Positions 17,176 to 52,884 of a stretch of 64,000 bases of DNA are shown here, in pieces. The stretch's first letter is position 1. The number at the start of each line of letters is the position of its first letter. This DNA is from Candidatus Hecatella orcuttiae (GTDB taxonomy: Archaea; Thermoproteota; Bathyarchaeia; Hecatellales; Hecatellaceae). The stretch is from contig MTLY02000002.1 of NCBI GenBank assembly GCA_002011035.2, positions 124,001-188,000 of the forward strand, in the 5' to 3' direction. The translations under genes were made by a program, and so were the position numbers. A model generated the notes under the pieces. It did no database searches. It was given only the letters and a program-made list of their open reading frames with translations, and had not been told where the DNA came from.

Positions 17176-17363
17176 TTCCATTTCTCCGTCGCAGCTATCG
17201 ATGTCTTTCACATTTCAAAGAACAGAATAGGGATAAATACGTTACGGTCGGCGAGCTTTCTACGGTTTATTGCTTATAAACCGGGAAGGCGGGCAGCCTT
17301 TGTCGGGAAACCCATAACTTTTTTAATGTAAATCCCGCCAACAGTAATTGAGGGTATTAGGAA

Positions 17364-51554: not shown

Positions 51555-52675
51555 TTATCTGAAGGCTTTCTCCAACTCCACCATTCTTTGAAGGAGGTCC
51601 TCCTTTCCTTTAAAATGTCTTCTGACAGGCTCTAGGATTTTGATGAGGGCTTCTGCAACCCCGTTCTTGAGGTCAAGGGGGTGAATCTTTCCCGCGGCGT
51701 AGAGGGCCTCCAGCTGAGGGTAGCCTTCCACGTCCACGGGGCCTCCGAATTTTTCCTTCCTTTCTAGGCGAAGAACCTTCTGCTTGGCAAAGACCACATA
51801 CCGGGCTATTTCCATGACAGGGTTACCGGCAGCCTGCTTGGGGGGGCAGTAGGCTTCCATGAGCTTGGCCCTTATGTCCTCCGGGGAGTCGTGGATGTAG
51901 ATGCAGCTTCTGGGGATGCTTTTCGACATCTTGGAGCTGATCTGGAGGTTTAACGCCTCATCCTCATCGTACACGCCGCCCATTCTGCTGGAGGGCCCGG
52001 CTAAGCTGGGAAGCAGATGGGTGTGAAGGCACACAGGCTTTTTCAAGTGCAGCTTCTCAGCCACATCCCTCGCCAGCATGTGGGCTTTCCGCTGGTCCAG
52101 TCCAGCGCAGGCGCAGTCCACACCTAGCTCGAAGATGTCAGCCACCTGCATGGAAGGATAGATCAAAGAAGCCGCGTCCACGTCCGCAGGGTTCAACGCT
52201 CTGCCCATGATGGGAAGACAGCGGATCACCCTAGAAAGAGTGGCTTTCTTGGCTACGCGGAGAACGTTCTCCCAGTAGCGTTCCCTAGCCACCAGCTCTG
52301 AAGCCCAGAGGAACCTAACCCGGCTGGGAGTTAGCCCCAAGGCTGCGAATCCTTCTTTCAAGTAGGCGCCGCAGAGGCGGATGTTCTCCATGACCCCTCC
52401 GAGTTTGTTGTTGATCCAAGCATGCCAGTCGGCTAGGAAGATGGTGAAGTCGAAGCCGGCCTCCACCATGTCCGCTATCTTCGCCCCGCAGAGGAAGCCT
52501 GTGCCCAAATGCATTAATCCGGGCGGGGCTGTCGCAGCCGCCGCTGTCCGGAAGGCTCGAACCCCCAGTAGGCTTTGGGATGCTTTTCAGCCTCCAGCAA
52601 CTGGCGGAGTTCGCTGCGGGTGACGATTTCCTCGAGGTCCTTTTCCACAAGCATCAGCTTTTCTTCAATATCCAC
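51555..52675 (-). CDS. tyrS: Tyrosyl-tRNA synthetase, split by a 29-nt bulge-helix-bulge intron
   Basis: Exon 1 (52675-52546) encodes the N terminus from VDIEEKL to AYWGFEPSG; exon 2 (52516-51555) begins at LMHLGTG, which is the class I HIGH motif, and contains KMSKS near residue 240. Without splicing the frame is broken between these motifs. Removing 52545-52517 joins the codons to give EPSGLMHLGTG, exactly as in archaeal TyrRS, and a 363-aa protein. GTG 52675 (after GGGAGAG) matches the usual MDIEEKL start; an upstream ATG at 52714 is less likely. Synthesis therefore appears to depend on splicing by the tRNA splicing endonuclease. The alternatives are a pseudogene or sequence error. Confidence 0.85.
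52517..52545 (-). other. Predicted 29-nt pre-mRNA intron in tyrS (bulge-helix-bulge)
   Basis: In RNA sense, exon CCGG pairs with intron CCGG as the 4-bp central helix. It is flanked by 3-nt bulges ACA (5') and AUU (3'). The inner helix is GCGG-c-GGCUG/CAGCC-CCGC closed by CGA; the outer helix is GCCUU/AAUGC with one mismatch. Cutting each bulge between its second and third nucleotides releases exactly 29 nt and joins C to UA as a Leu codon. This is the geometry recognised by archaeal splicing endonuclease. Confidence 0.75.
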
Positions 52676-52884
52676 GGATCTCTCTCCCGGGTTCCTCTCA
52701 TCTCCATACTTCATGAAGAAGCCTAAAAATTAAGTTTATGGAGCCGCCGATAGGGATAGGCTTTAGATGAGGAAAACATTTCCGGTGGAAGTGCCGCGAA
52801 CGAGAATGATTGGAGAGCGATTGTGGGTAAGGTTAATAGGATCATGAGAAGATTTATGATGAAACACACTGGAGTTGAGAGCTA

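Follow-up and report, generated by a model that had tools for sequence, protein, structure and literature searches.

Same-site inserts with the features of bulge-helix-bulge introns in the tyrosyl-tRNA synthetase gene of Candidatus Hecatella orcuttiae and other Bathyarchaeia

A pre-mRNA intron in the cbf5 gene of Crenarchaeota was reportedly described by Watanabe in 2002. In 2020, cbf5 was named as the only other reported host of a bulge-helix-bulge (BHB) intron in archaeal mRNA, beside the 5'-UTR case of that same paper (PMC7714728). The cbf5 intron is a short BHB that interrupts the coding sequence for an essential RNA-related enzyme, inside a conserved catalytic motif. It is cleaved between residues 2 and 3 of each bulge, and its distribution is patchy, with losses, in hosts with a heterotetrameric splicing endonuclease EndA (PMC2738675). 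Here we describe a 29-nt insert in tyrS, the tyrosyl-tRNA synthetase (TyrRS) gene of Candidatus Hecatella orcuttiae, which is probably like the cbf5 intron in all these respects. It differs in its host gene, which encodes an aminoacyl-tRNA synthetase, and in its site, and we found it only in Bathyarchaeia. Most of the tyrS inserts are strict BHBs (a 4-bp helix and two 3-nt bulges), in contrast to the cbf5 introns newly examined in Crenarchaeota, most of which were described as unconventional BHBs (PMC2738675). The introns of archaeal pre-tRNAs, at position 37/38 and at non-canonical positions, share the motif with tyrS, and the enzymes are presumed to be the same. The lengths of the tyrS inserts, 21–53 nt, fall inside the pre-tRNA intron range of 11–129 nt (PMC4090602). 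Unlike pre-tRNA introns, they are located in mRNA, and the exon strand of the helix is bound by codons and not by the anticodon stem. The BHB element of HVO_1309 in Haloferax volcanii is an mRNA substrate of EndA, as we propose for tyrS, but it is located in the 5' UTR and interrupts no reading frame (PMC7714728). The initial annotation of our locus spoke of a few archaeal genes, such as cbf5, with introns of this type, and considered so short an example, inside the catalytic signature of tyrS, new. In the literature searched, cbf5 is known and is the only coding-sequence case (PMC7714728); thus, the type of intron is a known one, and its host gene, tyrS, is new. That search found no tyrS or Bathyarchaeota mRNA intron, although an earlier report in subscription papers or preprints is possible.

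We analysed a 64,000-nt stretch of contig MTLY02000002.1, hereafter the window. Its features at tyrS, in window coordinates, are the following.

52714..51555, minus strand: tyrS (archaeal tyrosyl-tRNA synthetase), in two frames, with ATG at 52714 and stop at 51555.
52546..52714, minus strand: exon 1, from Met1 to the first base of codon 57, ending in EPSG (alignment to TyrRS N-termini of relatives; third-position substitution bias in relatives).
52548..52551, minus strand: 5' strand of the central helix, CCGG, on the exon side, codons Ser55-Gly56 (geometry; TCY-GGA constraint).
52545..52547, minus strand: 5' bulge ACA, predicted 5' splice site between AC and A (geometry; cleavage rule of PMC2738675).
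52517..52545, minus strand: putative BHB intron of 29 nt, AGCGGCGGCTGCGACAGCCCCGCCCGGAT, with predicted cuts separating the second and third base of each bulge (same-site introns in relatives; covariation).
52523..52544, minus strand: inner hairpin GCGG-c-GGCTG-cga-CAGCC-CCGC (geometry).
52519..52522, minus strand: 3' strand of the central helix, CCGG, on the intron side (covaries as CCGG/CUGG/CCAG with the exon strand).
52516..52518, minus strand: 3' bulge ATT, predicted 3' splice site between AT and T (geometry).
51555..52516, minus strand: exon 2, the rest of codon 57, M58 and the HIGH-type motif HLGT to the stop (frame; NF006330 match).
52503..52511, minus strand: HLG of the class I HIGH motif, immediately 3' of the junction (alignment to the solved archaeal TyrRS 2cya and 2cyc).

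On the minus strand, the upstream frame of tyrS reads to AYWGFEPSG and breaks, and another frame resumes at LMHLGTGFLCG. The 29 nt responsible (52545..52517) lie at the Gly56/Leu57 boundary, just 5' of the HIGH motif, exactly at the coordinates first annotated for a break between EPSG and LMHLGTG. Deleting them in silico gives a single ORF of 376 amino acids, which scores 430 bits against the NCBIfam model NF006330 (tyrosine--tRNA ligase; cut-off 220) and aligns over its whole length with 2cya and 2cyc. Cleavage between bases 2 and 3 of both bulges produces the junction GGA-CTA-ATG (Gly-Leu-Met). This bears out the claim that cleavage at the canonical position removes exactly 29 nt and restores the family sequence. 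The insert is flanked on both sides by the 5-nt direct repeat CCGGA, so cutting one base earlier in both bulges would yield the identical protein. A search of the whole genome returned one TyrRS gene, and the second, weak match turned out to be TrpRS. This rules out another intact tyrS, which the initial annotation had regarded, in combination with mRNA that never lacks the 29 nt, as an argument against splicing. Since tyrS is a single-copy gene, it cannot be read as a dispensable broken copy. In nearly all carriers of an insert at this site, the insert disrupts the frame or holds a stop, so the full-length TyrRS should depend on splicing; judging from the genomic sequences, tyrS of the carriers almost certainly needs mRNA splicing.

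The transcript across the insert reads CCTT-CCGG-ACA-GCGGCGGCTGCGACAGCCCCGC-CCGG-ATT-AATG and contains a strict BHB: the 4-bp helix CCGG/CCGG, one 3-nt bulge on each strand and a strong inner hairpin, in which GCGG/CCGC is followed by GGCTG/CAGCC. The hairpin first annotated is thus confirmed for the central helix, the two bulges and the inner helix, the last with one bulged C. Pairing in the outer helix is weak (U-A, U-A, C x U, C-G, G-C), and covariation looked for in it across the relatives was not found. With RNAfold, the exact BHB lay 2–7 kcal/mol above the predicted minimum for the tyrS sequence of the window, depending on flank length. On both strands of the 64-kb window, 600 places fit a strict BHB geometry that includes an inner helix of 4 bp, and 61 of these look-alikes join two ORFs, each 35 or more codons long. 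Since such look-alikes are common, one example is weak evidence. At the fixed tyrS site, a shuffled insert gives a BHB with a probability of about 0.0005 (about 0.05% of trials). From the single sequence, given 61 ORF joins in 64 kb, a chance match is not dismissible; the comparison with relatives removes chance. Other types of intervening sequence do not fit. There was no Rfam match to group I or group II introns at the gathering threshold, and a ribozyme core would not fit into 29 nt. An insert of 29 nt that is out of frame is likewise not an intein.

The tyrS genes of relatives were read at the DNA level after a protein search of 100 relatives, which showed many of them split at the identical point. 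Alignment with sister genomes, suggested with the initial annotation, thus revealed same-site inserts recurring across the class, as well as some genera of the same family without an intron. The inserts are 21, 22, 23, 24, 25, 27, 29, 30, 32, 34, 35, 37 or 53 nt long, and every one of them sits at the boundary of Gly56 and codon 57. A covariance model of the site found the intron in 33 of 257 genomes of the class Bathyarchaeia (74.5–95 bits), spanning seven families (f1, f2, f11, f17, f18, f19 and f27), and an uninterrupted 56-nt site in 77 of the 257 (at most 54.5 bits). One match, in genome G226, was spurious, with no tyrS at that place. A pattern scan of 84,980 GTDB species genomes matched 21 contigs. 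Most of them are titled Bathyarchaeota or Hecatellales; the remaining titles are vaguer, and several inserts there are identical to those of class members. In a 300-genome sample of the phylum, no intron-type tyrS split outside the class was found among the best matches listed. An apparent split in G445, outside the class, is a gene truncated by the end of its contig. Close relatives without the insert, same-family members included, have an intact tyrS; among the genera of the family to which the window belongs, g1 and g4 have the intron, and g2 and g3 do not. In one relative, a near-identical pair of intronless tyrS genes stands in tandem (L047 and L048, G088:C22). Another carries a second, decayed tyrS fragment (L157, G117:C4, about 17210-17284) with a BHB-like insert of about 19 nt and a lost downstream frame; it looks like a pseudogene copy, and the intron-bearing tyrS of that relative is on another contig.

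All 27 distinct carrier sequences could be parsed with the same offsets: a 4-bp helix, a 3-nt bulge, an inner helix and a 3-nt bulge. The central helix is paired at all four positions in 22 of the 27 and at three or more in every one; in a subset of f19, it consists of three pairs plus G.A. The inner helix has at least 4 bp in 26 of the 27. In all carriers, excision gives SG[LM]MH, with Leu or Met always as the spliced residue 57. In the relatives tested, exons 1 and 2 change mostly at third codon positions of the spliced frame. These data bear on the reading of the locus as a pseudogene or as a sequencing or assembly error, for which the frame break itself speaks and nothing else. The same-site inserts occur in many independently assembled genomes, substitution in the exons follows a coding pattern in the relatives tested, and the gene is the only TyrRS gene of its genome; we give this reading a negligible probability.

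Covariation points to selection on the pairing that a BHB intron would require. Loops and stems vary in sequence from one insert to another, but the helix partners are paired in 95.2% of cells, versus 22–45% when the partners are slid. Because the carriers are related, the shuffle and Fisher counts overstate independence, and it is with this limit that the covariation score was 0.553 versus 0.265 +/- 0.025 in shuffles (reached by 0 of 500), that double-change cells numbered 41 versus 14.2 in shuffles, and that the Ser55-Gly56 codons were TCY-GGA in 22 of 22 carriers versus 3 of 68 intronless relatives. One central pair alternates between U-A and C-G, the intron strand of the central helix covaries as CCGG/CUGG/CCAG with the exon strand, and inner pairs alternate among G-C, A-U, C-G and U-A. 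The TCY-GGA pattern is a synonymous constraint, and its extent coincides exactly with the helix strand on the exon side together with the first base of the bulge.

The start of exon 2 is conserved as well. It reads TRATG (TAATG or TGATG; 52512-52516 in the window) in 27 of 27 distinct carriers, and in 27 of the 47 intronless tyrS genes that have ATG there. This conservation could reflect U-R pairing beside the central helix or a stop/start overlap. The latter would agree with a split enzyme made by translational coupling, in which the mRNA stays unspliced, ribosomes terminate after an N-terminal peptide and reinitiate at the ATG of LMH within UAAUG, and TyrRS is assembled from the two pieces. 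The upstream frame in the window does end at a TAA overlapping this ATG, and the overlapping sequence is present in every distinct carrier. However, the ATG encodes a family residue found in intronless genes too, and pairing with the U that precedes the central helix accounts equally well for the R of URAUG. The stop of the upstream frame lies, in most carriers, within the insert and not at URAUG. A break at this point would also split the ATP/tyrosine pocket, and coupling leaves the helix covariation and the TCY-GGA constraint without a role. We therefore consider coupling very unlikely.

In T4 gene 60, ribosomes bypass a hairpin between GGA codons. A similar programmed hop from GGA to GGA is conceivable for the window, where GGA precedes the insert, another GGA ends it, and the hairpin follows the take-off codon, so that GGA codons around a hairpin are common to both. 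In addition, several relatives have a stop directly after GGA. The matched codons are, however, missing in about half of the carriers: 13 of 27 distinct sequences have AGA or AGT in place of the landing GGA, and there a hop would insert Ile, Val or Met, versus Leu by splicing. Take-off and landing codons are thus matched in the window but not across the relatives, and the locus does not qualify as a bypass element. What is conserved instead is the BHB pairing, and bypassing leaves the CYGG/CCRG pairing of exon and intron without explanation. Such bypassing is extremely improbable.

The cbf5 gene of the same genome served as a positive control for the BHB parse of tyrS, together with a set of 30 cbf5 loci that belong to other Bathyarchaeia or to families of the phylum outside this class. 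In the genome of the window, cbf5 (G000:C3, about 211098; L178 and L179) is interrupted by a 20-nt strict BHB with the helix CCCT/GGGG and the bulges TGA and AAA. It is located inside the catalytic motif GHGGTLDP, and its excision restores GHGGTLDPGVTGVLP. Most of the 30 loci can be parsed in this way; the exceptions are four without an insert, one unparsable and two with an insert but without a strict BHB. Same-site cbf5 introns occur in most other Bathyarchaeia tested, plus genomes of families f28, f37, f42 and f49. The range of the cbf5 intron is apparently wider than the Desulfurococcales/Sulfolobales range described earlier (PMC2738675). The tyrS insert is not a homologue of this intron: it is located in another gene and another motif, and the cbf5 intron is present separately in the same genome.

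The (alpha-beta)2 type of EndA is tied to broad substrates, pre-mRNA among them. The genome holds two EndA-family genes, one catalytic and one structural-looking. The catalytic subunit (L122, G000:C2:15840) has its best alignment with 3p1z, the catalytic subunit of A. pernix, and retains Tyr, His and Lys; its K-P-K aligns to the residues K44-P45-R46 of the A. pernix Crenarchaea-specific loop. The second gene lacks the catalytic His and, by its sequence, looks like a structural subunit. An RtcB gene is present, and an archease-like gene, recognised by eye, adjoins it. Judging from gene presence, the host appears to encode an EndA type competent for BHBs outside tRNA, together with RtcB. Several matches to tRNA models in this genome (loci L190-L212 of G000) span 90–161 nt, and ARAGORN misses or mis-parses them. 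These long tRNA genes probably bear introns, perhaps at unusual positions.

By its geometry, its compensatory pairing and, in silico, the restoration of the product on excision, the insert is a BHB intron. We are highly confident that it is an EndA-dependent intron of the archaeal type in the coding sequence of the sole TyrRS gene. The same reading in the initial annotation is supported by the inserts at the same boundary, the compensatory changes, the enzyme genes and the BHB intron of cbf5. In our model, the exon CCGG of codons Ser55-Gly56 would pair in the pre-mRNA with the CCGG at the 3' end of the intron, presenting the two 3-nt bulges to the endonuclease. This would be a heterotetramer in which the catalytic EndA subunit, with the Lys-Pro-Lys resembling the Crenarchaea-specific loop, is combined with the structural one. 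It would cut 3' of the second base in each bulge, and RtcB with archease would ligate the exons into the continuous frame EPSG-L-MHLGTG. We infer that cleavage and ligation take place and that the two EndA subunits assemble.

A tree of 109 TyrRS sequences requires at least nine changes of the intron state. We infer early presence of the intron in the class, followed by repeated loss, with repeated gain as the alternative; early presence is favoured because the site is identical, as has been argued for cbf5. BHB introns are the simplest protein-dependent mRNA introns, and a second host gene with same-site introns across seven families means that mRNA introns of archaea are no peculiarity of a single gene. 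Gene callers will split the essential tyrS in carrier genomes. Next to cbf5 of the same class, tyrS provides a second case in which intron-bearing and intronless sister genomes are available for testing gain, loss and function. More speculatively, and we consider it rather unlikely, BHB introns of mRNA may form a regular layer of expression in Bathyarchaeia, with ancestral introns in the catalytic motifs of cbf5 and tyrS at least, more of them in further genes, hidden behind apparent frameshifts in MAG annotation, and a splicing capacity, shared with pre-tRNAs, that limits the TyrRS supply. If true, the tyrS intron would tie the charging of tRNA to its splicing in a regulatory way.
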